This document shows positions 42,740-55,953 of a DNA stretch of 64,000 nt, piece by piece (position 1 is the first letter of the stretch; the number at the start of each line of letters is the position of its first letter). The DNA is from Amnibacterium kyonggiense (GTDB lineage: Bacteria > Actinomycetota > Actinomycetes > Actinomycetales > Microbacteriaceae). The position numbers and the translations under genes were made by a program. The notes under the pieces were generated by a model. It saw only the letters and a program-made list of their open reading frames with translations. It ran no database searches and was not told where the DNA came from. Where the stretch lies: the NCBI RefSeq assembly GCF_004364555.1, contig NZ_SOAM01000002.1, positions 434,001-498,000 on the forward strand. Reading direction: 5' to 3'.

Positions 42740-43714
42740 ATGCAGTACCGCGATCTGGGCCGCGCCGGCCTGCAGGTGTCCGACATCGGCTACGGCGCGT
42801 GGGGCATCGGCGGCGCGGGCGGCGGCTGGGTCGGCGCCGAGGACGACGAGTCGCTGCGCGCGCTCGAGCGCTTCATCGAGCTCGGCGGCACGTTCATCGA
42901 CACGGCGCGCGGTTACGGCCGCAGCGAGGAGCTGGTCGGCCGCGTCCTCCGGGAGCACCGGGACGAGGGCCTGATCGTCGCGACGAAGGTGCCGCCGAAG
43001 AACGGCGAGTGGCCCGCGCGCGCCGGCGTGCCCGTCGAGGAGGCGTTCCCGGGCGACCACATTCGCGCGAGCCTCGAGACGAGTCTCAAGGCGAGCGGCC
43101 TCGACGCCTTCGACGTGGTGCAGTTCCACGTCTGGAGCGACGAGTGGGTCGGGAACGGCGACTGGCTGGAGACCGTCCAGGCGCTGAAGGAGGAGGGCAA
43201 GCTCCGCCACTTCGGCGTCTCGATCAACGACTACGAGCCGGAGAACGCCCTCGCGCTGATCCGGTCCGGCGCCGTCGAGACCGTGCAGGTGATCTACAAC
43301 GTGTTCCACCAGCAGCCGGAGGAGCAGCTGCTCGCCGCCTGCCACGAGCACGGGGTCGGGGTGATCGTCCGCGTCGCGCTCGACGAGGGCGGCCTCACCG
43401 GGCGCATCACGAAGGACACGACGTTCGAGGAGGGCGACTTCCGCCGCACCTTCTTCCAGGGCGACCGCCCGGCGCAGGTCGAGCAGCACGTGCAGGCGCT
43501 CGCGGACGACCTCGGGATCGCCGTCGACGAGGTGCCTGACGTCGCGCTCCGGTACGTGCTGTCGCACCCGGCGGTCTCGACCGTCATCGCGGGCATGCGC
43601 ACGGTCCGCAACGTGGAGCGGAACGCGGCCACGAGCGACCGTGACGCCCTCCCCCAGGCGACCGTCGCGCGGCTCAAGGCGCACCGCTGGGAGCGCAACT
43701 GGTACCGCGGCTGA
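42740..43714 (+). CDS. Aldo/keto reductase
   Basis: A 324-residue TIM-barrel oxidoreductase using NADPH. The N-terminal [42 protein letters not shown] (with Asp and Tyr of the catalytic tetrad), VATKVPPKN (Lys) and DVVQFHVW (His) are family landmarks. The C-terminal [20 protein letters not shown] binds the cofactor. ATG 42740 follows AAGGAG. The substrate is unknown; the IGRP-like motif set suggests the YghZ/IolS type of general aldehyde or sugar reductase. Confidence 0.92.
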
Positions 43715-43763
43715 CGGTGGTGCTCGTCAGGTCCTGATGGACGCGACCGGGCAGACTGCAGCG

Positions 43764-44315
43764 ATGGCGCACCGGACGTACGTGCTCATCGACGGCGAGA
43801 ACCTCGACACGACGCTCGGCGTCTCGATCCTCCGGCACGCGCCGAAGTCGGGCGAGCGGCCGCGGTGGGAGCGGGTGATCGAGTTCGCGCGCACCCTCGG
43901 CTCGGACGACGTCGTCGCGCTCTTCTTCATCAACTCGACCTCCGGGAACACGCCCTGGCCGTTCGTCGCGGCGATCCAGAACGCCGGCTTCCGCGCCGTG
44001 CTGCTGAGCGGCACGGGCAACGAGAAGGTCGTCGACGTCGGCATCCAGCGCACGCTGGAGGCGCTGACGAAGCGCGACGGGGATGTGCTGCTCGGCTCCC
44101 ACGACCGCGACTTCCTGCCACAGGTCGAGCAGCTGCTCGACTCCGGGCACGGCGTCGCGATGCTCGGCTTCCCGGAGATGATGAGCGGCGTCTACGCCGA
44201 GCTCGGCGTGCAGATCCACGACCTCGAGTACGACGTGAAGGCGTTCAACGTGCGCCTGCCGCGCATCCGCGTCATCCCGCTGGCGGAGTTCGACCCGGAG
44301 GACTTCCTCGACTGA
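43764..44315 (+). CDS. NYN domain protein (PIN-like ribonuclease)
   Basis: A 183-residue single NYN domain, a PIN-like fold found in RNA-processing nucleases. Asp10 in YVLIDGENLD, the acidic residues after VALFFINSTS, and LLGSHDRDFLPQVEQLL form the expected metal-binding carboxylate set. The C-terminus is a short acidic tail. ATG 43764 is taken; earlier frame is a shadow. It stands alone; RNA substrate is unknown. Confidence 0.88.
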   Translation: MAHRTYVLIDGENLDTTLGVSILRHAPKSGERPRWERVIEFARTLGSDDVVALFFINSTSGNTPWPFVAAIQNAGFRAVLLSGTGNEKVVDVGIQRTLEALTKRDGDVLLGSHDRDFLPQVEQLLDSGHGVAMLGFPEMMSGVYAELGVQIHDLEYDVKAFNVRLPRIRVIPLAEFDPEDFLD

Positions 44316-44343
44316 GCGGTCCTGGGCGCTCGTCGGGTCGTCG

Positions 44344-45150
44344 TCAGCCCGGCGGGCGCGGCGCGCTCGTGCGCGCGTCGAGCTCCACGACGCGCTCGGC
44401 CTCGCGCCGCATCGCGGGGTCGACCATCCGCCCGTCGGGCAGGCGGGCGACGCCGCCCTCCGCCGTCGCCGCGAGCACCGCGTGAGCGAGCGCGACGGCC
44501 TCCTGCGCGGGGGCGAACGCTCGCTCGACCACCGCCAGCTGTCGCGGGTGAACGGCCATGCGCCCGACGAAGCCGAGCGCGGCGCCGGCGCGCGTGTCCG
44601 CCTCCAGGCCCGCCTCGTCGTCGAGCCGGGTCCAGGCGGAGAGCATCGGCGCCGGGAGCCCCGCGGCCGCCGCCGCGTAGACGAGGCCGACCCGGGCGAA
44701 CTCGATCACGGGCGCACCCGAGCCGACGGCGCTGCGGAGGTCCGCCTCGCCCAGGCCGACCCGGGTCACGGCGGCCTGCGCAGCGATCGACCGGGCGTCG
44801 AGCACGCCGGCCGCGTCCTCGAGCAGCGCGGTGAGGGGCACGCCGGGCAGCGCTGCCGCCACCGCGTCGAGGCGGGCCGCGGAGGCCTTCGGCACCCGCA
44901 CCTCGAAGGGCGTCGACACCGCCGCCAGCGCGTGGAGGTCGTCCGGCCCGTCGATGCGGACCTGCACGACCACGCCCGGGTGCGGCTCCGCGAGCGCGGC
45001 GACGACGGTCTCCCGCGCTGCGGCCTTCCGGTCCGGTGCGACGGCGTCCTCGAGGTCGAGCACGACGAGGTCGGCGCCCGAGGCGAACGCCTTCGCGAAC
45101 CGGTCCGGCCGGTCGCCGGGCACGTACAGTCCGGTCAGCAGGGGGGTCAC
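44344..45150 (-). CDS. CitE-like (HpcH/HpaI family) CoA-ester lyase
   Basis: A 268-residue TIM-barrel lyase. LYVPGDRPDRFAKAFASGADLVVLDLEDAVAPDRKAAARE is the classic opening of citrate-lyase beta-like proteins, with the metal-binding Glu and the conserved Arg later (VQVRIDG; RVGLGEADLR). Relatives cleave citryl-CoA, malyl-CoA, citramalyl-CoA or related 3-hydroxy-acyl-CoA thioesters. Start is GTG 45150 overlapping the CoA-transferase stop (GTGA). It is the last gene of the LacI operon and acts after the CoA-transferase: the transferred CoA thioester is probably its substrate. Confidence 0.9.
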   Translation of the reverse strand: MTPLLTGLYVPGDRPDRFAKAFASGADLVVLDLEDAVAPDRKAAARETVVAALAEPHPGVVVQVRIDGPDDLHALAAVSTPFEVRVPKASAARLDAVAAALPGVPLTALLEDAAGVLDARSIAAQAAVTRVGLGEADLRSAVGSGAPVIEFARVGLVYAAAAAGLPAPMLSAWTRLDDEAGLEADTRAGAALGFVGRMAVHPRQLAVVERAFAPAQEAVALAHAVLAATAEGGVARLPDGRMVDPAMRREAERVVELDARTSAPRPPG

Positions 45151-46343
45151 ACGATCCCCCGCTCGCGCAGCGCGGCGACCTGCTCGGGAGTCAGGCCGAC
45201 CTCCGCGAGCACCGCATCGGTGTCCGCCCCGTGCGCGCGCCCGGTCCAGCGCACCGCGCCCGGGGTGCCGGACATGCGGGACAGGACGTTCTGCATCCGG
45301 ATCGGCCCGAGGTCCTCGTCGTCGATCGTGAGGACCGTGCCGATCGCCCGGTACTGCGGGTCGTCCACGACGCCGCGGACGTCGTAGACCGGCGCGACCG
45401 CGGCCTCGACGCGCTCGAACTCCCCCAGCACCTCGTCGAGGTCCCGATCGCCGATCCACCCCTGCACGGCGGCGTCGAGCTCGTCCGCGTGCTCGGCGCG
45501 GCTGTGCCCGGAGGCGAACCACGGCTCGGCGAGCACGTCCGCCCGGCCGACGAGCCGCATCACCCGCTCGGCGATCGACTGCGAGCTCGTCGACACGGCG
45601 ACCCACGAGCCGTCCCGCGTCCGGTACACGTTCCGCGGCGCGTTGTTGACGGAGCGGTTGCCGGTGCGCGGCTGCACGAGCCCGAGCTGATCCCACGCCG
45701 TGATCTGGCCGCCGAGCAGCATGAGGATCGGCTCGATGATCGCGACGTCGATCACCTGTCCCTCGCCGTCCCGGTCGCGCGCGCGCAGCGCGCTGAGGAT
45801 CGCGGTGCTCGTCGCGAGCGCGGCGACGCCGTCCGCGAGCCCGAACGGCGGCAGGGTCGGCGGGCCGTCCGGCTGCCCGGTCAGCGCCGCGAAGCCGCTC
45901 ATCGCCTCGGCGAGACTCCCGAATCCCGGGCGCCGGGACGAGGGGCCGACCTGCCCGAACGCGGTGACCCGCGCGATGACGAGCCCGGGGTTCGCCGCGA
46001 GCAGGCGGTCCGGGCCGATGCCCCACCGCTCGAGCGTGCCGGGCCGGAAGTTCTCGATGAGCACGTCCGCGCCGCGCGCGAGCGTCTCGAGCAGGTCCGC
46101 GCCCTCCGGCTGCGAGAGGTCCGCGGTCACGGTGCGCTTGTTCCGGCCGAGCGTCTTCCACCACAGGTTCACGCCGTCCTTCGCGGGCCCGTGCCCGCGC
46201 GCGGCGTCCGGTCGCCGCGGATGCTCGACCTTGACGACGTCCGCGCCGGCGTCGCCGAGGAACGTCGCGGCGAGCGGTCCGGCGAAGAGCGTGGAGACGT
46301 CGAGGACCCGGAGGCCCGCGAGCGCGGGAGCCCGCCCGGTCAT
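45147..46343 (-). CDS. CaiB/BaiF family CoA-transferase
   Basis: A 398-residue family III CoA-transferase that moves CoA between carboxylic acids. LAGLRVLDVSTLFAGPLAATFLGDAGADVVKVEHP is the diagnostic opening; LIENFRPGTLERWGIGPDRL and the catalytic Asp region (QVIDVAIIEP) follow. It starts at ATG 46343 and overlaps both neighbours by 4 bp. In this operon it probably activates the acid released by the glycosidase genes, supplying the CitE-like lyase. Confidence 0.92.
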   Translation of the reverse strand: MTGRAPALAGLRVLDVSTLFAGPLAATFLGDAGADVVKVEHPRRPDAARGHGPAKDGVNLWWKTLGRNKRTVTADLSQPEGADLLETLARGADVLIENFRPGTLERWGIGPDRLLAANPGLVIARVTAFGQVGPSSRRPGFGSLAEAMSGFAALTGQPDGPPTLPPFGLADGVAALATSTAILSALRARDRDGEGQVIDVAIIEPILMLLGGQITAWDQLGLVQPRTGNRSVNNAPRNVYRTRDGSWVAVSTSSQSIAERVMRLVGRADVLAEPWFASGHSRAEHADELDAAVQGWIGDRDLDEVLGEFERVEAAVAPVYDVRGVVDDPQYRAIGTVLTIDDEDLGPIRMQNVLSRMSGTPGAVRWTGRAHGADTDAVLAEVGLTPEQVAALRERGIV

Positions 46344-48322
46344 GCGGCGTCCCAGGCGATCCGGAAACCGATCGACGGGCTCCGGTCCACCCCGAGCCCG
46401 GGCAGGAGGAGCTTCAGCGTGAACCCCGGCGCCTGCACGCCGCCGTCGACGTACCAGTCCGAGCCCGTGATCCGGGTCTCGCTGCCGCCCTTCAGGACGC
46501 ACCAGCGGGTGACGCCGTCGGTCCGCTCGCTCTCCGTCCAGTTCCAGACCGCGGGGACCCGCCGCTCGAGCCCGGGGCCGGCGGTCTGCCACTCGTGCTC
46601 GGTCGGCAGGCGGGCGCCGCACCAGGCGGCGTAGGCGCGGGCGTCCTCGAGCGAGACGCCGGTGACCGGCGCCGCCGGTTCCGTCGACCCGACCAGGAAG
46701 CGCTGCTCGACCGCGGGGCGGTAGCCGGTCGCGGACAGGAACGCCGCGAACTCCGCGACGCTCACCTCCCGCCGGGCGACGCGCGCCTTCCCGAGCCGCA
46801 CGCGCACCGTCCGCTCCTGCGGGTCGTGCAGGCGCGGCGGCAGCGGCTTCCACTCCTCCACGTAGGGCGCCTCGTCGTCGATCCCGGTCTCGCGGCGGCG
46901 CCAGGTCTGCACGAGCTCGGGCTCGTCCTCGGCGACGGCCACCGCGTCCGGATCGGGCTGACCGGCCGTGCGGTGCGGCGGGTGCGCGAGGACGGACCGC
47001 CGGGCGGGGAACGTCGCGTCCGTGCCGCCCGGGTCCGCGGCCTGCTCGGCGAGCAGCGGCGCGAGCCAGGCGGGCTCGCCGGCCGGGGCGAACAGGCCGA
47101 GCACGCCGTGCGCCGGGACGGTCTGCTCCGCACCGGCCTCGCGGCCCGCGGTCACGTCGACGAGTCGCCCGGCCGGCGGCTGCGCGAGCACGCGTCCGGT
47201 CCAGTCGGTGTCGCCGCGGTTCACCACGGTCCACAGGACGCCGTCGGCGTGCTCCCACCGGGACGCGAAGACGCCGGCGGCGATCGCCGCGTCGGACGCG
47301 CCGTCGAGCGGGGTCCACGCCCCCTCGAGCAGGATCCGGGAGGCGGCGCGCTGCACCCGCAGCACGCGGCGGAGGGTCGCGGCGTCGCGGTCGTTCCAGC
47401 CGACCCAGACGCCGAACACGGTGTCCCAGACGAGCACGCCCGTCCCGTTCATCCAGGCGGACTGCACCTCCTCCGCGTGGTCGCGGTTCCAGCGCCGCGT
47501 CGCGTGGAGCATGTGGCGGCGCTCGTACCAGTGCGCGCGCAGCACTCCGGGCGCCCGACTGTCGGCGAACCACTGCGCCCAGCTCAGCTGGTGATCCGGG
47601 ACGCGCTGGTTCGGCACCCGGGACTCGCCCTCGAGCAGCAGCGGCGGATCCGCCTCGGTCGCCGCGCGGACCAGCGCGTCGTCGGCCTGCTTCAGCGTGT
47701 CGAGGAACACGCCGTCCGCGCCGACCTCGGTCGCGAGCGCGCGGAGCTCCTCCGCGTCGCTCCGCCCCGTGCGCCGGGTGCCGGTGTCCCACGGGTTGTA
47801 GTCGACGAAGACCAGCAGTCCGGCGTCCCGGAACGCGGTGACGAGGTCCGCGAGCCCGGGCACGTCGCGGTAGAAGTCCCACTGGTTCCGGTCGTCGATG
47901 CCGATGACCGGGTACGCGTGCCAGAGCACGAGCCCGTCCAACCCGCCGGTCCGCGCCATCGCGGCGAGCAGCCGCTCCGGGGTGAAGCGCCCCGCGGCGC
48001 GGTCGAAGAGCCGCTCGTCCCACAGCCAGACGAGCGCCACGGCGAAGGCCGTGGAGGCGCGGCGCCCGCGATCGGTCCGGTAGAGGGCGTCGTCCGGGTG
48101 CAGGCGCGCTCGGGCGGCGTCCCGCCACGCGGCCAGGTCGGCGCGCCAGCGCGGCCAGTCGGCGGGGTCGTCCGGGGCCGCGAACACCTTCGCGATGTCG
48201 CCCTGCTCCGGGTCGAGCACGCCGGCCGGCGGCAGCACGGTCGGCAGGTCGATCGGCCTCGGCCGGAGCGGGTCGAGCAGCGGCACCGGGGCCTCGTCGA
48301 CGTCGACGATCGGCTCAGCCAC
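46340..48322 (-). CDS. TIM-barrel glycosidase-like/SUMF1 fusion protein
   Basis: A 660-residue two-part protein. Residues about 40-440 look like a glycoside-hydrolase TIM barrel (LVLWHAYPVIGIDDRNQWDFYRDVP; LVFVDYNPWDTGTRR; GADGVFLDTLKQADDALV), with Asp and Glu (LLLEGESRVP) in positions expected for a catalytic pair. The C-terminal 200 residues are a SUMF1/FGE-sulfatase-modifying-like domain (VSLEDARAYAAWCGARLPTEHEWQ; GGSETRITGSDW; IGFRIAWD). The paired catalytic Cys residues of formylglycine synthases are not evident, so it is unlikely to mature a sulfatase. Start GTG 48322 overlaps the previous gene by 8 bp. No signal peptide: cytosolic. Confidence 0.75.
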   Translation of the reverse strand: MAEPIVDVDEAPVPLLDPLRPRPIDLPTVLPPAGVLDPEQGDIAKVFAAPDDPADWPRWRADLAAWRDAARARLHPDDALYRTDRGRRASTAFAVALVWLWDERLFDRAAGRFTPERLLAAMARTGGLDGLVLWHAYPVIGIDDRNQWDFYRDVPGLADLVTAFRDAGLLVFVDYNPWDTGTRRTGRSDAEELRALATEVGADGVFLDTLKQADDALVRAATEADPPLLLEGESRVPNQRVPDHQLSWAQWFADSRAPGVLRAHWYERRHMLHATRRWNRDHAEEVQSAWMNGTGVLVWDTVFGVWVGWNDRDAATLRRVLRVQRAASRILLEGAWTPLDGASDAAIAAGVFASRWEHADGVLWTVVNRGDTDWTGRVLAQPPAGRLVDVTAGREAGAEQTVPAHGVLGLFAPAGEPAWLAPLLAEQAADPGGTDATFPARRSVLAHPPHRTAGQPDPDAVAVAEDEPELVQTWRRRETGIDDEAPYVEEWKPLPPRLHDPQERTVRVRLGKARVARREVSVAEFAAFLSATGYRPAVEQRFLVGSTEPAAPVTGVSLEDARAYAAWCGARLPTEHEWQTAGPGLERRVPAVWNWTESERTDGVTRWCVLKGGSETRITGSDWYVDGGVQAPGFTLKLLLPGLGVDRSPSIGFRIAWDAA

Positions 48323-49673
48323 GGGAGGCCGATCGCTGCGGCACGAGCGCGAGCGTGCGGTCGGCGAGCGCGGAGAGCCGGGCGCCGTCCTCGCCGGGCA
48401 CGCTCGTCGCGAGCCGGTCGTGGATCGGGTCCGCGAACGACGGCGGCACGGCTCCGAGGCCGCCGAGCGCACCGACGATCGCGCCCGCGGTCGCACCGAC
48501 GGAGTCCGTGTCCCATCCGCACTCGACCGCGAGACCGGTGGTGCGGGCGAAGTCGCCGTCGCCGCGGGCGACCGCGAAGGCGAGCAGCGCGGCGTTGTTC
48601 AGCACGTGCACCCAGTGGAGGTCGCCGTAGCGCTCGTGGAGGGCGTCCAGTCCGGCGTCGTCGCTCCCCGCGGCCTCGGCGGTCGCGAGTCCGAATCGGA
48701 CGGCCGCGGCGTAGCGGCTCTCGGGCGGCACGACCTCGAGGCCCGCTTCCAGCACGGCCCGCGGATCGTCGAGCACGACGGCGGCGGACGCGCACGCGGC
48801 GGCGAAGAGCGCGCCGAAGAGGCCGTTCCGCCGGTGGCTGAGCCGAGCGTCCGCCCAGGCGAGTCGCGCCGCGGCGGTCCGGTCGCCCGGCCGAGCCCAG
48901 CCGTAGACGTCGGTCCGGATCTGCGCGCCGATCCAGTCGGTGAAGGGGTTGCCGACGACGGCGGCTTCATCGGGCTCGCCGCCGTCGAGCAGGTTCCGGT
49001 ACGCGATCCGCTCGGCGGTGAAGACGCGGCCGCCGGGCAGCTCGTTCAGCCAGCGGGTCGCGACGTCGTCCGTCGTCGGATCGCCGTCGGTCTGCTCGAG
49101 CAGGTGGAGGACGATGAGCGGGAAGTTGAGGTCGTCGTCCTCCGGCATCCCGTCGATCCGTTCCGCGAGGCTCGTCGGGCGGCTCCGCCGGTTCCACGGC
49201 CACCGCTCGGCGATCGCGTCCGGCAGTCCGACCGCCGTGAAGTACGCGCGGACCGGGAGGTTGCCGGTCGCCTCGGCGATCGCGGCGATGCCCTCCCGCG
49301 GCAGCTTCTCCACGGGCTTGCCGAGCAGGCAGCCGGCGGCACGGCCGAGCCAGGCGCCGTGCACGCGGTCGGCGAGGTCGTCGCCGACCGGCAGGAGCGG
49401 CAGGTCCGGGATCGCGTCGAGCCCGTCCGGCTCTGCGGCGAGCAGCGCGAGATCGCGCGGCAAGGCGTCGAGGTCGTCGAGCAGGGTGCGGGCGAGCCGG
49501 CGCTGATCGGGTGTCCCGGGCGTGCCGGCGCCCTCCCGGTCGGGCCGGTCGTCGCGTCCGGCGGCGATCCAGCGCCGCCGGACCGCCTCGACGTCGGCAC
49601 CGTCGCGTGCCGCGGCGTCGAGCGCATGCGGGACGAGGTCCTCGGGTCGCGCCCAGGTCAGTCGGAACGTCAC
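48315..49673 (-). CDS. ADP-ribosylglycohydrolase family protein (with N-terminal extension)
   Basis: A 452-residue member of the ADP-ribosylglycohydrolase (ARH) superfamily. After an N-terminal segment of about 105 residues, the core begins DRVHGAWLGRAAGCLLGKPVEKL, a variant of the GDALG opening. Metal-binding acids are in PEDDDLNFP and GWDTDSVGATAGAIVGALGG. ARH enzymes break N- or O-ribosyl/glycosyl bonds, usually with two Mg ions. GTG 49673 overlaps the upstream ARH gene as GTGA. Together the two ARH proteins may act on different linkages of an imported glycoside. Confidence 0.88.
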   Translation of the reverse strand: MTFRLTWARPEDLVPHALDAAARDGADVEAVRRRWIAAGRDDRPDREGAGTPGTPDQRRLARTLLDDLDALPRDLALLAAEPDGLDAIPDLPLLPVGDDLADRVHGAWLGRAAGCLLGKPVEKLPREGIAAIAEATGNLPVRAYFTAVGLPDAIAERWPWNRRSRPTSLAERIDGMPEDDDLNFPLIVLHLLEQTDGDPTTDDVATRWLNELPGGRVFTAERIAYRNLLDGGEPDEAAVVGNPFTDWIGAQIRTDVYGWARPGDRTAAARLAWADARLSHRRNGLFGALFAAACASAAVVLDDPRAVLEAGLEVVPPESRYAAAVRFGLATAEAAGSDDAGLDALHERYGDLHWVHVLNNAALLAFAVARGDGDFARTTGLAVECGWDTDSVGATAGAIVGALGGLGAVPPSFADPIHDRLATSVPGEDGARLSALADRTLALVPQRSASRG

Positions 49674-50827
49674 GGGGCCGCCGTGAGGGCAGAGGCGGCC
49701 AGGTCGCGGCGCGCGGCCGCACGGGCGGCGGCGCGCTCGCCGTCGGCGGCCCAGACGTCGCGCGCGACGGCGGCCATCGTCCGCCCGGGCCGCTCCAGGT
49801 CGATGCGGCTCGCCTCCCCGATCCGCTGCACCCACTCCGCGTCCACCGAGCGGCGCCCGCCGAGCGCACCGGCGATCGACCCCGCCATCACGGCGATGGA
49901 GTCGGAGTCGCGCCCGTAGTTGACGGCGCCGAGCACGGCGGCGCGGTGGTCGCCGCTCGCCGCGAGCAGCATCCCGAGCGCGACCGGCAGCTCCTCGATC
50001 GACTTCGTGCGGTTCGGGAGGCGCGCGTCGCGGGCGGGCGACCGGTAGGTCTCCCCCACGGTGTCGAACGGCCGGACCGCGTCGCGGATCGCGTCGATCG
50101 CGCCCATCGGGTCCCGGTGCCGCGCGGCGACGGTCGCCACCGCGTCGATCGCGTCGCGCGTGCCGTCCTTCGCGAGCCGCAGCGCGGTGTCGACCACGTC
50201 CTGCACGCCCGCGCCCGGCCGCATCGCCTCGGCGACGGCCGCCGCGAAGACCCCGGCGGCCTCGCGGCCGTAGCTGGACTGGTGCGCCCCGGCGATGTCG
50301 ACGCCCTCCGCGTACGCGGTGTCCGGGTCGCCGGCGTTCACGACGCCGACGGGCGGCATGATCATCGCCGCGCCGCAGTTGACGATGTTCCCCACCCCGG
50401 CCTCCCTCGGGTCGACGTGCCCGTAGTGGAGGCGCGCCACGAGCCACTTCTCTGCGAGGAAGAGCCGCTGCAGCAGGATCGTCTCGGTCTCGAGCTCCGG
50501 GATCCAGCGCCGCTCGCCGATCAGTCGCGGCACGAGGTGGTCGGCGACGTCGAACGCCGTGAGGTGACGCCGGACCTCGTCGTAGACCTCGACGAGCGCG
50601 ACGGTGAGCAGGGTGTCGTCGGTGACGTGCCCGTCGCCCTTGTGGTACGGCGCGATCGGCCTGGCGGTGCGCCAGTCCGCGTTGAACGGACCGACGATCC
50701 CCTCGATCGGGCCGCCGTAGCGCGCACGGATCGCCTCCGGGGTGTTCCCCTCGGCCGCGCCGCCGAGCGCGTCCCCGACCGCCGCGCCCGCGAGCGCGGC
50801 GATCGCCTTGTCCTCGAACAGGTCCAT
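49670..50827 (-). CDS. ADP-ribosylglycohydrolase family protein (canonical)
   Basis: A 385-residue ARH protein with canonical motifs: AALAGAAVGDALGGAAEG (GDALG), GHVTDDTLLTVAL (TDDT metal ligands) and NYGRDSDSIAVMAGSIAGAL (RDSDS). The central part includes GHVDPREAGVGNIVNCGAAM and HQSSYGREAAG. Catalytic acids are intact. ATG 50827 has a strong GGAGGGGGAG. It follows the binding-protein gene by 17 bp. In actinobacteria, ARH-family genes often sit with sugar transport and kinase genes, consistent with nucleoside- or glycoside breakdown. Confidence 0.9.
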   Translation of the reverse strand: MDLFEDKAIAALAGAAVGDALGGAAEGNTPEAIRARYGGPIEGIVGPFNADWRTARPIAPYHKGDGHVTDDTLLTVALVEVYDEVRRHLTAFDVADHLVPRLIGERRWIPELETETILLQRLFLAEKWLVARLHYGHVDPREAGVGNIVNCGAAMIMPPVGVVNAGDPDTAYAEGVDIAGAHQSSYGREAAGVFAAAVAEAMRPGAGVQDVVDTALRLAKDGTRDAIDAVATVAARHRDPMGAIDAIRDAVRPFDTVGETYRSPARDARLPNRTKSIEELPVALGMLLAASGDHRAAVLGAVNYGRDSDSIAVMAGSIAGALGGRRSVDAEWVQRIGEASRIDLERPGRTMAAVARDVWAADGERAAARAAARRDLAASALTAAP

Positions 50828-50844
50828 GGACTCCCCCTCCGACG

Positions 50845-52158
50845 TCACTTGTTCACCGACTGCCACCCGGCCGTGAGCTGCGACTTCAGCTGATCGGTCG
50901 TGATGCTGCCGGCGAAGTACTTCTGCAGCAGCGGCGTCGCGTACTGGTCCTTCCACTGCGGGTAGTTCGTCGCGGTCTGGAACGGCGCCGCGGTGAGGCC
51001 CTTGCCGCTCGCGATCGTCTGCTCCCAGCCGTCCTTGCCGCCCGTCTCCTTCAGCACCTCCTGCTGCGCGGGCTCGGAGGCCGGGATCAGCCAGTCGCCC
51101 TGCGCCAGCGCGGCCTGGTTCGTCGCGCTCATGAAGTAGTCGATGAACTGCGCGGCCTGCTGCTGCGCCTTGCTCGTCGCGGAGACGGACATCGTCTGCG
51201 GATCGGCCGCCTGCGCCGTGCCGGCGGAGCCCGCGAGCGGCGGCAGGACGTCCCACTCGAAGCCCTTCGGCCCGGACTGCGTGATCTGCTGGGCGACGTA
51301 GTTGCCGCCGACGTACATCGCGTACTTGCCGCCGAAGAACCCCGGCAGCGCGTCCGAGCCCGACTGGGTGATGGAGGTCGGCGCGATGCTGCGGTCGGTC
51401 CGGGCCATCGCCTGGATCGTCTCCGGCACCTTCAGCTCGTTCGCGCCGATCTGGATCTGCGCGTCCTTGCCCGTGCCGGTGAACCAGGTGCCGCCGTAGT
51501 TGAGGGAGGTGCTGAGCACGGTGGCGGCGGGCTGCGAGAGCCCCCACCCGACCCCGTACTTCCCGTTCTTCGTCAGCTGCTTCGCGATCGACCGGAACCG
51601 GTCCCAGGTCATCGAGTCGCCCGTCGGCATCGAGACGCCCGCATCGGCGAAGGCCTTCTTGTTCGCGAAGACGACGTAGGTCTGCAGCAGCGTCGGCGCG
51701 GCGACGATCTTGCCGTTCACCGTCACCGCCTTCCAGATGCCCGCCGGGACCGCCTGCTGCACGGAGGAGGACAGGTACGGCTTGAGATCGGCGAGGTAGC
51801 CCTGCTCGGCGAAGCCGGTGATGTCCGCGGCCTCGTCGTGGATGATGTCCGGCGCCGTGCCGCCCTGGAACTGCGTCACGAGCTGGTCGTGCACGTTGTC
51901 CCAGCTGCCCTGCCGCAGGTCGATCTGGATGTCCGGGTGGCTCGCGTTCCAGCTGGTGACGATCTTCTTCACCGCCGCGATGGTCGTGGCCTGGAACGCG
52001 AGGCTCTGGAACGTCAGCGTGACCTTCTTGCCGCTCGACGCCTGCGGGGTGCTGCCGCCGCTGTTGAACGCGCAGGCGGAGAGCAGGCCCGCGGACGCGG
52101 CGAGCACGGCGCCGCCGAGCACGGTGCGGCGGGCGACGGGGGTGGTGCGGATGGACAT
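50845..52158 (-). CDS. Sugar ABC transporter substrate-binding lipoprotein
   Basis: A 437-residue extracellular solute-binding protein of family 1. The signal contains twin Arg residues (ARRTVLGG, Arg10-Arg11) and a lipobox LLSAC with Cys29, so Tat export and lipidation are possible. The mature protein has WNASHPDIQIDLRQGSWDNVHDQLVTQFQGGTAPDII, diagnostic for oligosaccharide-binding proteins. ATG 52158 follows AAGGAGACACC. It is the third transport component of the LacI operon. No ATPase gene lies in the operon, as is common where a shared MsiK-like ATPase is used. Confidence 0.92.
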   Translation of the reverse strand: MSIRTTPVARRTVLGGAVLAASAGLLSACAFNSGGSTPQASSGKKVTLTFQSLAFQATTIAAVKKIVTSWNASHPDIQIDLRQGSWDNVHDQLVTQFQGGTAPDIIHDEAADITGFAEQGYLADLKPYLSSSVQQAVPAGIWKAVTVNGKIVAAPTLLQTYVVFANKKAFADAGVSMPTGDSMTWDRFRSIAKQLTKNGKYGVGWGLSQPAATVLSTSLNYGGTWFTGTGKDAQIQIGANELKVPETIQAMARTDRSIAPTSITQSGSDALPGFFGGKYAMYVGGNYVAQQITQSGPKGFEWDVLPPLAGSAGTAQAADPQTMSVSATSKAQQQAAQFIDYFMSATNQAALAQGDWLIPASEPAQQEVLKETGGKDGWEQTIASGKGLTAAPFQTATNYPQWKDQYATPLLQKYFAGSITTDQLKSQLTAGWQSVNK

Positions 52159-52196
52159 GCGGTGTCTCCTTCGACAGGGGGTGGGAACGGCGGGCG

Positions 52197-53078
52197 TCAG
52201 CCCTTGACGGCGCCGGAGAGAAGGCCGGAGGTGAGCCGGCGCTGGATCAGGACGAAGAACAGGAGGCTCGGCAGCGTCGCGAGCAGCGCGCCCGCGGCGA
52301 GCTGGCCGAGCTGCACCTGCCCTTCCGACCCGACGAAGCGGGCGAGGGACAGCGGCAGCGTCTGCAGCGCCGGGTTCTGGATCAGCACCAGGGCGAAGAA
52401 GAACTCGTTCCACGCCGAGATGAAGGTGAACAGGCTGGTCGCGACGAGGCCGGGGCCGAGCAGCGGCAGCACGATCGACACGAGGACGCGCAGTCGGCCG
52501 GCGCCGTCGGTCGCGCCGGCCTCCTCGAGGTCGACGGGGATGGAGGCGACGTGCCCCTGCAGCATCCAGAGCGTGAACGGCAGCGACCAGACCGTGTACA
52601 CGAGCACGAGCCCGACGAGGCTGTCGACCAGGCCGACCTGCTTGAGCACGAGGAACAGCGGGATGATCACGAGGATGAAGGGGAAGACCTGGCTGAGCAG
52701 GATCCAGCCCGTCGCCGCGCTGCGGATGCGGCTCCGGAACCGGGCGAGCGCGTAGGCCGCCGGCAGGGAGATCACCGTCACGACGATCGTCGTCGACACG
52801 GCGACGATCACGCTGTTGAGCCCCGACTGCAGCAGGTTCGCCTGCTGGATCGCCTGACCGAAGTTGGAGAGGTCGAGGCTCTGCGGCAGCAGCGTCGGGT
52901 TCGGTGCGAGCAGCTCCCGGGACGACTTGAACGACGTCGTCAGCAGGAACAGCAGCGGGAACCCGAGGAACACGACGTACGCCGCGAGCGCCACGTACTG
53001 CAGCGGGCGGACGACGCGGTTGCGGCGTCGGATGGAGGGGGTGCGGCGCCTGGCCGTCCCCGCGGTGACTGCGGTCAT
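52197..53078 (-). CDS. Sugar ABC transporter permease, MalG type
   Basis: A 293-residue inner-membrane protein with six spans. The EAA-like coupling loop is SIPVDLEEAGATDGAGRLRVLVSIVLPLLGPGL, typical of the CUT1 MalG subgroup. The N-terminus is short and basic. ATG 53078 overlaps the stop of the MalF-type permease gene (ATGA). It forms a heterodimer with that permease. Confidence 0.93.
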   Translation of the reverse strand: MTAVTAGTARRRTPSIRRRNRVVRPLQYVALAAYVVFLGFPLLFLLTTSFKSSRELLAPNPTLLPQSLDLSNFGQAIQQANLLQSGLNSVIVAVSTTIVVTVISLPAAYALARFRSRIRSAATGWILLSQVFPFILVIIPLFLVLKQVGLVDSLVGLVLVYTVWSLPFTLWMLQGHVASIPVDLEEAGATDGAGRLRVLVSIVLPLLGPGLVATSLFTFISAWNEFFFALVLIQNPALQTLPLSLARFVGSEGQVQLGQLAAGALLATLPSLLFFVLIQRRLTSGLLSGAVKG

Positions 53079-54028
53079 GCGCGCTTCGCTCTTGCCTGGG
53101 CACGGAGGTACAGGACGAGGAACACCGAGATGATGACGACCATCACGTTGCCCATCGCCGCCGCGCTGCCGAAGTCGCCGTAGCGGAACGCCTCGTTGTA
53201 GGCGAACAGCATCGGGAGCATCGTCTGGCCGCCGGGCCCACCGGCGGTCAGCACGTAGACGAGCGCGAACGAGTTGAAGTTCCAGATCAGATCGAGCGTC
53301 GTGATCGCGATGATCACCGGCTGCAGCCCGGGCAGCGTCACGTGGAGGAAGCGCTGCCAGGTGCCCGCCCCGTCGATCTCCGCCGCCTCGTGCAGCTCGC
53401 CGGAGATGTTCTGCAGACCGGCGAGGAGGGTGATGGTCGTCTGCGGCATGCCCGACCAGACCCCGACGACGATCACCGTCGGCAGCGCGATCGCGAAGCT
53501 GCCGAGCCAGTTGATGTCGCTCGGCAGCCCGAGGAAGCCGAGGATCTGGTTCACGGGGCCGTAATCGGGGTTCAGGATCAGCCGCCACATGATCGCGATG
53601 GTCACGGGCGGGATCGCCCAGGGCACCAGGGCCAGGGTGCGGGCGAGCCAGCGGCCGCGCAGCTTCAGGTTCAGCAGCAGCGCCAGCCCGAGCGCGGCGA
53701 GGAACTGGAGCAGGGTCACGGAGATCGCCCAGACCGCGCCGATGCGGAACGAGCTCCAGAAGAGGCTGTTGCCGAGCAGGTCGACGTAGTTCTGCAGGCC
53801 GTTGAAGGAGACGACCTGGTTCAGGCCCGCTTGCGCGTTCGTGAAGCCGAGCGCGATGCCCTGCACGAGCGGGTACACCGACAGCAGCGCGACCGGGATC
53901 AGCGCCGGCAGCAGCAGGAGCCAGGTCTCCCGTGCCTGGGCGCGGCGCTGTCGACTGCGCTTGGGCCGCTGCGGACCCGGCTTGCGCTGCGCGGTGTCCG
54001 CGAGCGGCGCCTCGGTGACGGCGGTCAT
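53075..54028 (-). CDS. Sugar ABC transporter permease, MalF type
   Basis: A 317-residue inner-membrane protein with six spans and a basic N-terminal leader (RPKRSRQRRAQARE). The coupling loop ELHEAAEIDGAGTWQRFLHVTLPGLQPVI is the MalF-type EAA motif. ATG 54028 overlaps the LacI stop (ATGA). It pairs with the MalG-type permease; transported substrate is likely a saccharide or glycoside. Confidence 0.93.
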   Translation of the reverse strand: MTAVTEAPLADTAQRKPGPQRPKRSRQRRAQARETWLLLLPALIPVALLSVYPLVQGIALGFTNAQAGLNQVVSFNGLQNYVDLLGNSLFWSSFRIGAVWAISVTLLQFLAALGLALLLNLKLRGRWLARTLALVPWAIPPVTIAIMWRLILNPDYGPVNQILGFLGLPSDINWLGSFAIALPTVIVVGVWSGMPQTTITLLAGLQNISGELHEAAEIDGAGTWQRFLHVTLPGLQPVIIAITTLDLIWNFNSFALVYVLTAGGPGGQTMLPMLFAYNEAFRYGDFGSAAAMGNVMVVIISVFLVLYLRAQARAKRA

Positions 54029-55032
54029 GCGGCTCCTCCGCTGGACGCCCGGACGCGCAGGGTCGGTTCGACGACGACGCGCTCGGGCGGCCCGTCGAAG
54101 CCGCCGAGCCGGCGGAGCAGCAGCTGCGCGGCCCGCCGCGCGCGCTCGATCGAGCCGAGGTCGACGCTCGTGAGCGCCGGACGCGTCATCCCGGCGAGGT
54201 CGGTGTCGTCCATGCCGACGACCGCGACGTCCTCCGGGACGCGCAGCCCGCGCTCGCGCAGCACGTTCAGCGCGGCGACGCCGAGCAGGTCGTTCGCGCA
54301 GAGGATCGCGTCCGGGACGCACTGGTCGAGCACCCGCCGGGCCGCGGGCAGGCCCGCTTCGTAGGTGAAGTCGTCCGCGACGACCTGCAGCTCCTGATGC
54401 GTGACGAGGCCGAGGGCGTCGCAGCCGCGCACGTAGCCGGCGAGGCGCGCCGCGCCCGGCACGGTGTCGACGGGGCCGTTGACGAAGGCGATGCGGCGAC
54501 GGCCCTGCGCCACGAGGTGCTCGAGCGCGAGCCGCACGCCCGTCATCGAGTCCGCGCGCACGCTGTCGACCGGCACGTCGTCGGGGACCGAGCCGATCAC
54601 GACGATGGGGTGGCGGCGCCCGCGGAGCCGCTCGACGACCCGCTCGTCGACCTGCAGCGGGCTGAGGATCAGGCCGTCGACGAAGGATCCGTCGAGGTCG
54701 GTGAGCAGACCGAGCGGCCCGTCGGCGCCCTGCCCGGTGGAGGCGAGCAGCAGGCGGAAGCCGCCCTCCTGCACCTCCTCGGTGATGGTCCGCGTCATCG
54801 CGGTGTAGACGGGGTTCCCGAGATCCGCGACCGCGAAGGCGATCTGCTCGGTGCGGCCGACGCGCAGACGGCGGGCCGAGGCGTCGGGCGCGTAGCCGAG
54901 CGCGGCGGCGGAGGCCTGCACCCGCTCGGTGATCGCCGGCGATGCGGGCAGCCCGTTGAGCACCCGCGACACGGATGCCACGGACACCCCCGCGTGCTGC
55001 GCCACCAGGGCGATGGTCGACTTCTTCGTCAT
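54025..55032 (-). CDS. LacI family transcriptional regulator
   Basis: A 335-residue LacI/GalR repressor. The N-terminal helix-turn-helix is IALVAQHAGVSVASVSRVLNG, with the hinge ASARRLRVGRT. The effector-binding core resembles sugar-binding proteins (IAFAVADLGNPVYTAMTRTITEEVQEGG; GLILSPLQ; ILCANDLLGVAALNVLRERG). ATG 55032 lies 8 bp from a palindromic operator, so it probably represses its own operon and is released by the imported sugar or glycoside. It is the first gene of the nine-gene operon. Confidence 0.93.
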   Translation of the reverse strand: MTKKSTIALVAQHAGVSVASVSRVLNGLPASPAITERVQASAAALGYAPDASARRLRVGRTEQIAFAVADLGNPVYTAMTRTITEEVQEGGFRLLLASTGQGADGPLGLLTDLDGSFVDGLILSPLQVDERVVERLRGRRHPIVVIGSVPDDVPVDSVRADSMTGVRLALEHLVAQGRRRIAFVNGPVDTVPGAARLAGYVRGCDALGLVTHQELQVVADDFTYEAGLPAARRVLDQCVPDAILCANDLLGVAALNVLRERGLRVPEDVAVVGMDDTDLAGMTRPALTSVDLGSIERARRAAQLLLRRLGGFDGPPERVVVEPTLRVRASSGGAA

Positions 55033-55040
55033 GCTGCCTC

Positions 55041-55065
55041 GTAATCGATTACAAGAACGATTACA
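55041..55065. promoter_or_regulatory. LacI-type operator with repeated half-site
   Basis: GTAATCGATTAC at 55041-55052 is a perfect 12-bp palindrome. The half-site CGATTACA occurs twice in direct repeat, at 55046-55053 and 55058-55065, giving TGTAATCG twice on the minus strand. The TGTAAT inside either repeat could also serve as a -10 element. The operator touches the ribosome-binding region of the LacI gene, so occupancy could block both transcription and translation. Confidence 0.7.
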
Positions 55066-55209
55066 GCGACCGTACGCGGCGCGCTCCATTCGCGCAACAC
55101 CACCGGGCCCGATTCCGCTTCCCTCGCCCTCGCTGGTCGAGGTGCGAGCGAAACGAGCCTCGAGACCACCCCGAGGGTCCACACTCGACGAGACGATCGA
55201 GGAGGACCG

Positions 55210-55953
55210 ATGGCGCTCGTCACCTGCGGGTTCCGCTCCGAGGTGCTCGGCATCGACACCTCGATGACCGCGGTGCTGCCGCTCGGCGCGGACCGCGCCG
55301 CTCCCCCGGCGCTGCTCTACCTCCTGCACGGCGCGGGCGGGGACCACACCTCCTGGCTGCAGGGCGCCCCGATCGCGCGCCTGGCGGAGGAGGCGGGTCT
55401 CGCGGTCGTGATGCCTTCCGGCGGGCACGGCTACTGGACCGACCAGGTTCGCGGTCCGCGCTGGTGGACCTTCGTCGCGGACGAGCTGCCCACCATCGTG
55501 CGCGACCTGTTCGCCCTCGACCCGCCGCGCGAGCGCACGTTCGCCGCCGGCCTCTCCCGCGGCGGGTACGGCGCGCTGAAGCTCGGTCTCCGTCGGCCCG
55601 AGCGCTTCGCGGCGGTCGCCGGGCTGTCGGCCAAGGTCGACATCGCGAACGAGGACTGGTCGGAGCCCTGGCGGCAGGACGTGTTCGGGAGCGCCGAACG
55701 CGCCCGGCAGGAGGGCGACGACCTCCTCACCCTGCTCGCCGCCGTCGATCCGGGGGCCTGCCCGCGGCTGCTGCTCTCCTGCGGCACCGCCGACCGGCTG
55801 TACGGGGAGAACCTCCGGTTCCGCGACGCCGCGCTCGAACGCGACCTGCCGGTCGACTGGACCGAGGGGCCGGGAGGGCACGACTGGGAGGTCTGGGACC
55901 GCGACATCCGGCCTGTCGTCACCCGGTTTGCCGAGCTCGCCCGCGAGACCTGA
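55210..55953 (+). CDS. Esterase, S-formylglutathione hydrolase/tributyrin esterase type
   Basis: A 247-residue alpha/beta hydrolase of the esterase-D family. Motifs: LLYLLHGAGGDHTSWLQGAPI, the nucleophile elbow GLSRGGYGALKLGLRRP and terminal GPGGHDWEVWDRDI with the catalytic His. It is cytosolic, with no signal peptide. ATG 55210 has GAGGAGGACC. It is divergent from the LacI operon and shares the 177-bp region with the operator, so coordinated control is possible. It might hydrolyse acyl esters of the same imported compound. Confidence 0.9.
   Translation: MALVTCGFRSEVLGIDTSMTAVLPLGADRAAPPALLYLLHGAGGDHTSWLQGAPIARLAEEAGLAVVMPSGGHGYWTDQVRGPRWWTFVADELPTIVRDLFALDPPRERTFAAGLSRGGYGALKLGLRRPERFAAVAGLSAKVDIANEDWSEPWRQDVFGSAERARQEGDDLLTLLAAVDPGACPRLLLSCGTADRLYGENLRFRDAALERDLPVDWTEGPGGHDWEVWDRDIRPVVTRFAELARET

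Follow-up and report, generated by a model that had tools for sequence, protein, structure and literature searches.

A conserved nine-gene actinobacterial operon joining two ARH-family hydrolases, a TIM-barrel/SUMF1 fusion and a CoA-transferase/lyase pair, and its possible role in the use of an acylated riboside

The nine-gene operon and its upstream site

The stretch of Amnibacterium kyonggiense DNA considered here (64,000 nucleotides, contig NZ_SOAM01000002.1, positions 434,001 to 498,000; hereafter the window) carries at 44344-55032, on the minus strand, nine genes called in the order LacI, PermF, PermG, SBP (a sugar-binding lipoprotein), ARH-A, ARH-B, TIM/SUMF1, CaiB and CitE (Table 1). 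In transcription order the junctions measure -4, -4, +38, +17, -4, -8, -4 and -4 bp, so that six of the eight are overlaps and two are short gaps. Pfam matches along the operon are to LacI, BPD_transp_1 (twice), SBP_bac_1, ADP_ribosyl_GH (twice), FGE-sulfatase, CoA_transf_3 and HpcH_HpaI. A preliminary description of this DNA had placed the genes on one strand, joined mostly by overlaps of 4-8 bp behind a single upstream operator, and had assigned them to CUT1 transport and to the ADP-ribosylglycohydrolase (ARH), SUMF1, CaiB/BaiF and CitE families; the gene calls, the Pfam matches and the operator search reported here agree with it on each of these points.

The operator-like site is a palindrome of LacI type. 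Searched with at most one mismatch, the 13-mer TGTAATCGATTAC occurs at a single place in the 3.71-Mb genome, on both strands of the one palindrome, which lies upstream of lacI. Of 70 examinable relative loci, 56 have a AAACGTTT-type palindrome no more than 250 bp upstream of lacI and 11 have a Glycomyces variant there, so that one or the other is present in 67; one of the three loci with neither (L062) has a near match. The AAACGTTT type was met in 14 of 1400 random windows drawn from the same loci. The lacI gene is the first of the cassette in 64 of the 66 relative loci that are complete. Neither a sigma-70-type promoter-like site nor a terminator-like site was found in 43600-55600, and the absence of the latter says little, since just 1.5 were expected by chance. 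The GC content of the operon (74.1%, against 73.9% for the rest of the window) gives no sign of foreign origin, though none of the six other genomes of the genus carries the operon or the TIM/SUMF1 protein. On its downstream side, a plus-strand open reading frame ending at 44315 converges on CitE.

Table 1. Positions of the operon genes and of two upstream features in the window
Feature	Position	Strand	Remarks
LacI/GalR-family regulator	54025-55032	-	335 aa; Pfam/NCBIfam; closest models RbsR-type, far under their cut-offs
CUT1 permease 1 (PermF)	53075-54028	-	317 aa; top NCBIfam models UgpA, GlcT, MalF, all under cut-off
CUT1 permease 2 (PermG)	52197-53078	-	293 aa; top NCBIfam models GlcU, MalG, UgpE, all under cut-off
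SBP, sugar-binding lipoprotein	50845-52158	-	437 aa; PF01547; twin-arginine-like signal and lipobox (by eye)
ARH-A, ADP-ribosylglycohydrolase-family hydrolase	49670-50827	-	385 aa; PF03747
ARH-B, ARH-family hydrolase	48315-49673	-	452 aa; PF03747 at residues 106-411; about 100 additional N-terminal residues
TIM/SUMF1 fusion	46340-48322	-	660 aa; barrel and beta-sandwich about 1-430, SUMF1/FGE-like about 500-660 (PF03781)
CaiB/BaiF family III CoA-transferase	45147-46343	-	398 aa; PF02515, 1.7e-112
CitE/HpcH-type acyl-CoA lyase	44344-45150	-	268 aa; PF03328
LacI-type operator-like palindrome CGTAATCGATTACA (plus-strand reading)	55040-55053		just upstream of lacI ATG
Divergent PF00756 esterase beside operator	55210-55953	+	Pfam; possible partner, unproven; 27% identity to cassette esterase

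Conservation of the cassette and of its two enzyme pairs

Relatives were collected by way of the fusion protein in named actinobacterial genomes, and the best 80 of the 141 found were compared. All nine genes are present in 66 of these loci and keep the window's order in 64, the two others (L067 and L128) having lacI between ARH-B and TIM; 12 of the remaining 14 are short or cut contigs. CaiB is present in 77 of the 80, and the loci without it are L129 (at a contig end), L084 and L070. Carrier genera include Glycomyces, Micromonospora, Asanoa, Microbacterium, Leifsonia, Herbiconiux, Agreia, Cellulomonas and Actinophytocola. Within the same family as the window's organism, a full or near-full TIM/SUMF1 protein, in some cases in pieces, occurs in 16 of 299 genomes (its own included); a wider tally of 88 of 299, which takes in matches of E 3e-8 or weaker that are almost all to the SUMF1 domain only, was left out. 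Besides the window there are 15 family loci, of which two are cut by contig ends and all 13 uncut ones hold the nine genes in order. A TIM-domain search of 396 genomes of the phylum matched only the window's own genome and is not used as an estimate of distribution, the presence of other carriers in that draw not being established.

With the order kept in 64 of 66 complete loci, it is ruled out that the genes are neighbours by chance or that two operons have merged locally in recent times. Distances among CaiB sequences correlate with those among ARH-A, ARH-B and TIM sequences (Spearman 0.59-0.83, 71 sequences with the window included), a correlation that by itself proves little because it has no unlinked control gene.

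The association of the ARH genes with CaiB and CitE extends beyond carriers of the fusion gene. A search based on ARH-A gave close homologues in 17 of the 299 family genomes, 15 of them TIM carriers; the TIM carrier outside these matches (G113) has a contig that begins just before TIM. Of the two that are not, one (G258) has CaiB (74%) and CitE (54%) ahead of LacI-CUT1-ARH-A-ARH-B and an additional ARH gene, with no TIM, CaiB/CitE being linked to ARH independently of the fusion gene in the rearranged locus L154. A diverged version, LacI-CUT1-ARH-ARH-UgpC-CaiB-CitE, again lacking the fusion gene, lies on Ensifer/Sinorhizobium replicons. Among rhizobia and relatives, 13 of 20 listed records were examined (Microvirga left out), and these hold ARH-A homologues of about 40-49% identity in LacI-CUT1-ARH-A operons; UgpC is present in every one of the 13, and 11 have an ARH-B of greater length. 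As a control, 100 family genomes gave 62 ARH matches in 35 genomes; CaiB lies within 12 kb for 12 of these, all of them this cassette (6 genomes), and none of the other 50 is near CaiB among the best CaiB matches listed, a comparison made by eye that does not cover weaker CaiB relatives.

Since the cassette is conserved and a diverged rhizobial version exists without the fusion gene, the ARH pair and the CaiB/CitE pair belong together. The nine-gene unit, CaiB and CitE included, that the preliminary description proposed is thus found entire in 66 of 80 loci, and the refuting outcome named beforehand, homologous loci in which the CaiB/CitE pair and the ARH/ABC set always stand apart, is contradicted by the 77 loci with CaiB, by the rhizobial version and by L154.

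Two side observations concern the rhizobial copies. The rhizobial ARH-B (L136, 10109-12208, and relatives) has about 400 additional C-terminal residues, to which no Pfam match was obtained in a whole-protein scan. In the Rhizobium sp. RCAM05350 copy (L164, 8811-15288), ARH-A, ARH-B, CaiB and CitE match in several pieces, and the copy is probably decayed or badly sequenced.

Properties of the cassette proteins

The two ARH proteins score 155.0 and 157.8 bits with PF03747 (cut-off 26.2) and fall far under the cut-offs of the NCBIfam Tri1 and DraG equivalogs. At the metal motifs of the family, T/S-D-D and D-x-D-T/S, ARH-A has T69-D70-D71 and D307-x-D309-S310 (conserved in 97% or more of 79 aligned sequences), and ARH-B has D179-D180-D181, with Asp for Thr/Ser, and D388-x-D390-S391 (97% or more of 80). 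Characterised ARH enzymes cut 1,2-cis (alpha) bonds. Other ARH arrangements were also observed. A second operon of the same genome (L156, 6606-12913; G000:C4, about 42.6-48.9 kb) has LacI, an ARH-B relative (39%), a binding protein, two permeases and a ribokinase-like gene; plasmid pJCM18538 of Mycolicibacterium arabiense carries the same gene set plus UgpC. This second operon is probably a simpler riboside operon. A further ARH-family gene directly adjoins a PfkB-type kinase gene at G000:C1:701857-703661, also in the window's own genome, and a tandem of four ARH-family matches lies in one LacI-CUT1 operon of another family genome (G017; L153, 9579-14000).

CaiB scores 376.6 bits with PF02515 and is 67-80% identical to 14 orthologues from family genomes; its D171, presumably the catalytic Asp of family III CoA-transferases, does not vary among 15 sequences and is conserved in 97% or more of 78. 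Its top NCBIfam model, far under cut-off, is succinate-glutarate CoA-transferase, and its profile matches succinate-hydroxymethylglutarate CoA-transferase at 2.6e-56, third among named entries behind an unassigned CaiB protein and formyl-CoA transferase. In CitE, R65, E111 and D137 are kept in at least 97% of aligned sequences. Against the model for the RipC C-C lyase of itaconate degradation (NF038242), CitE reaches 129.1 bits where the equivalog cut-off is 375. Its best relatives in the PDB are acyl-CoA lyases, and the profile matches PDB 6aq4, presumably Rv2498c, at 5e-44. PMC6689899 describes Rv2498c, of the CitE family, as cleaving (S)-citramalyl-CoA and (R)-3-hydroxy-3-methylglutaryl (HMG)-CoA. 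As presented there, the lyases of itaconate/citramalate and of leucine degradation (RipC and Rv2498c) are, like the one considered here, CitE-type acyl-CoA lyases, and they take a thioester to acetyl-CoA and an oxo acid, as is proposed for it; unlike in those systems, the lyase of the operon is paired with a family III CoA-transferase in a sugar operon, and the window operon has no hydratase gene.

The binding protein has mostly sugar-binding proteins among its PDB relatives. With it and the two permeases the operon contains no ATPase gene; a UgpC homologue, 54% identical, is encoded at G000:C1:912307 in the same genome.

The fusion protein was modeled with AlphaFold from 16 and from 20 sequences, with a mean predicted local distance difference test score of 75.6 for the whole chain and 83.3 for residues 1-430. 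The predicted barrel has eight strands (94-99, 130-134, 170-175, 204-207, 229-233, 246-250, 271-275 and 295-299) and is followed by a beta-sandwich. The 50 best Foldseek rows are chiefly glycoside hydrolase family 13 (GH13) enzymes, with GH129, GH30 and the CD98 heavy chain also present, with the barrel model giving a TM score of at most 0.51 by query and root-mean-square deviations that are mostly 7-10 A, and the whole chain a TM score of about 0.33. Retaining alpha-glycosidases have an Asp following strand 4 and a Glu closing strand 5, and the GH13 catalytic triad is Asp/Glu/Asp; the fusion offers candidates for just two of the three residues, D208, which follows strand 4, and E233, which closes strand 5. 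The two are conserved in homologues of about 32% identity from Sphingopyxis and Spirosoma, in which position E231 is Gln. The likeness to GH13-type alpha-retaining enzymes thus comprises a predicted TIM barrel, a following beta-sandwich, D208 and E233; the differences are the large deviation in the fit, the SUMF1-like C-terminus and the TIM half, which gave no Pfam match over cut-off and no match to the GH13 catalytic-domain profile. From the model, the N-terminal half is best read as another glycosidase-like domain, a component absent from the scheme of the preliminary description.

The C-terminal FGE-sulfatase domain scores 57.8 bits (cut-off 23.3), the strongest segment aligning with positions 38-138 of the 255 in the profile. 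Formylglycine-generating enzymes have a conserved active-site cysteine pair, and EgtB/SenA-type sulfoxide or selenoxide synthases have a DinB domain with iron ligands ahead of the FGE domain. No cysteine is among the positions of the fusion conserved in 97% or more of 83 sequences, nor among the invariant or near-invariant columns of another alignment, and no DinB match was found at E 0.01, the predicted barrel occupying that place. The name "SUMF1/EgtB/PvdO family nonheme iron enzyme", given in the database to the two plasmid relatives of Sphingopyxis and Spirosoma, is therefore ruled out as a description of the fusion, and the SUMF1 part, having no conserved cysteines, is read as a structural or binding module. 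On the Sphingopyxis plasmid the TIM/SUMF1 gene stands with genes for a TonB receptor, a GH127 protein, an annotated ribokinase and a CoA-transferase that shares 33% identity with CaiB, with no ARH match within the 19.4 kb examined; in Spirosoma it adjoins a GH28 gene. From these neighbourhoods it seems that lineages can differ in which hydrolases accompany the kinase and the CoA-transferase, one replacing another.

Most relatives of the operon contain a gene that the window copy does not. A ribokinase-like gene was seen between ARH-B and TIM in 7 of the first 15 loci (gaps read by eye) and lies inside the cassette in 66 of the 79 loci in which the site is visible (65 by score, plus L104; L063 is cut). 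Three cassette kinases reach 265-294 bits against the ribokinase model, just under its cut-off of 299.65, and no more than about 100 against non-ribokinase models, and ribokinase-like genes also stand beside ARH genes in Mycolicibacterium, Agrobacterium, Nonomuraea and the second operon of the same genome. Because of this gene in most relatives, ribose is likely the sugar handled.

A PF00756 esterase gene, 48-92% identical to the query esterase, accompanies 32 of the 80 loci: in 16 it lies between TIM and CaiB (the Micromonosporaceae arrangement), in 15 after CitE, and in one after TIM in a locus without CaiB. Some of these esterases appear, by eye, to be secreted. Their presence hints at an acid that is attached as an ester substituent and is not the aglycone. 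In a side observation, L110 (11930-14065) and other Micromonosporaceae have, within the cassette, a seemingly secreted esterase fused to SBBP beta-propeller repeats. The divergent esterase beside the window's operator, at 27% identity, is unsupported as the cassette esterase and is kept just as a lead.

A proposed pathway, its rivals and its meaning

On the observed gene order, conservation, domain assignments, operator-like site and co-occurrence, the operon is read, with moderate confidence, as a unit dedicated to the catabolism of an acylated riboside, with repression, reactions, ribose and the source and identity of the acid proposed as follows. The LacI protein would repress from its one operator until a ligand appears, and the CUT1 importer would take the compound up using a shared ATPase of UgpC/MsiK type. 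ARH-A and ARH-B would hydrolyse ribosidic bonds, probably of 1,2-cis (alpha) type, in a metal-dependent manner, and the TIM-barrel/SUMF1 protein would remove or trim further sugar. Freed ribose would be phosphorylated by a ribokinase, whose gene most relatives have within the cassette and which the window's own genome may encode at another place. The acid, plausibly freed by an esterase, would be activated by the CaiB-type CoA-transferase, and the CitE-type lyase would then split the 3-hydroxyacyl-CoA in a retro-Claisen reaction to acetyl-CoA and an oxo acid. Malate, citramalate and HMG (3-hydroxy-3-methylglutarate) are the first candidates for the acid; malate, citramalate and HMG esters seemed to fit a CitE-type lyase, and the hydroxyglutarate of methanopterin, also considered, did not. 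The chemistry of Rv2498c and the CaiB profile matches point to HMG or citramalate, a choice that is a doubtful first guess. Ribose operons of the rbs type are alike in their LacI/RbsR-like control and in the ribokinase-like gene, here present in relatives of the window operon; they differ in that the window operon has a CUT1 importer in place of RbsABC, at least two ARH-family hydrolases, a CoA-transferase and a lyase.

Of the scheme given in the preliminary description, the nine genes as one unit and a ribosylated compound as substrate have been strengthened, the latter by the ribokinase-like gene of most relatives, which the window copy lacks; glycoside cleavage by the ARH proteins and an acid released as aglycone stay at the level of proposals.

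Several observations weigh against an acylated riboside as substrate or against parts of the scheme. No ribokinase gene was found in the window operon; the 12 ribokinase matches in the genome, all encoded elsewhere, are under the cut-off (the best at 219 bits), as are all three scored cassette kinases. The cassette esterase is missing, as searched, from 48 of 80 loci, the window having just its divergent relative, and a search of the window's own genome for it gave no match, though that search had no positive control and missed even this 27% relative. The first ARH-B motif opens with Asp, where the ARH motif usually has Thr or Ser. The TIM domain also resembles, by Foldseek, the CD98 heavy chain, an inactive relative of GH13 enzymes. 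CitE and CaiB are far under every equivalog cut-off, and for this reason the acid cannot be named from sequence. Finally, the two enzyme pairs do part company in places. Arthrobacter sp. M4 (L084) has no CaiB/CitE in a 10 kb flank and Cryobacterium tepidiphilum (L070) none in about 3.5 kb; G017 has LacI-CUT1-ARH-A-ARH-B and two more ARH genes with neither TIM nor CaiB/CitE in the stretch examined; and CaiB is present in just 7 of the 13 rhizobial loci, with CitE in six of those, adjoining UgpC (L164 in pieces), while the Agrobacterium locus has a ribokinase gene in place of CaiB/CitE and the remaining loci have neither.

The alternative that survives best keeps the catabolic unit and changes the sugar to another furanose, for example arabinofuranose or apiose, the ARH proteins being repurposed as general 1,2-cis furanosidases. 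The Sphingopyxis cluster, with its GH127 (beta-L-arabinofuranosidase-type) gene, its ribokinase and CoA-transferase genes and no ARH, and the GH28 neighbour in Spirosoma are consistent with it, and we know of no assay for any ARH of this clade; with the cassette kinases closest to ribokinase, and the kinase of the Sphingopyxis cluster itself annotated as one, it is unlikely, if still to be taken seriously. Less probable is that the operon scavenges external ADP-ribose, NAD or nucleoside fragments while CaiB and CitE serve an unrelated acid that shares the signal. The ARH family name and known ARH chemistry favour scavenging, and E. coli offers a parallel: in PMC10819704, the yegTUV genes, a target of GgaR/YegW, pair an ARH-family gene with genes for a nucleoside-transporter-like protein and a putative sugar kinase under their own repressor, and are given no clear function. 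That system differs from the operon in its nucleoside-symporter-type transporter, GntR regulator and single ARH, and in having no CoA-transferase or lyase. The importer here belongs to the CUT1 sugar type and not to a nucleoside type; further enzymes could hardly be fitted into the cassette, whose gaps, where read, contain a kinase or an esterase; and CaiB/CitE accompany this ARH clade in two phyla. A third suggestion, that CaiB and CitE form a C-C bond instead of breaking one, or alter an acyl group, in an operon that detoxifies or modifies a glycosylated natural product, draws on the synthetic capacity of CitE-type enzymes and on Micromonospora and kin as prolific producers, and is very improbable beside the LacI control, binding-protein importer, several hydrolases and, in relatives, ribokinase-like gene of which utilisation operons usually consist.

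To return to the catabolic unit for an acylated riboside, each protein family in it is known, and the cassette is a conserved and apparently undescribed utilisation operon: no description of it was found in searches of the openly licensed literature aimed at the gene set or at ARH enzymes as glycosidases, in keeping with the preliminary description, whose author did not recognise the gene set as a described pathway. A wider proposal, put forward tentatively and with doubt outweighing belief, is that the operon encodes a catabolic route not described before, for an acylated riboside that is abundant in soil and on plants yet has been overlooked. In this route ARH-fold glycosidases would replace classical GH families, ribose (through ribokinase) and a 3-hydroxy acid (through CoA transfer and retro-Claisen cleavage) would both be consumed, and the TIM/SUMF1 protein would found a new glycosidase family. 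The tight cassette, with a single binding protein, regulator and operator, makes the substrate findable. If the reading is correct, one branch of the ARH family would consist of nutrient-acquiring glycosidases, so that annotations as "ADP-ribosylglycohydrolase" in such operons would mislead, and the TIM/SUMF1 protein would represent an uncharacterised glycosidase-like family. Actinobacteria and rhizobia would, on the same reading, be drawing on a pool of ribose conjugates that has so far gone unrecognised.

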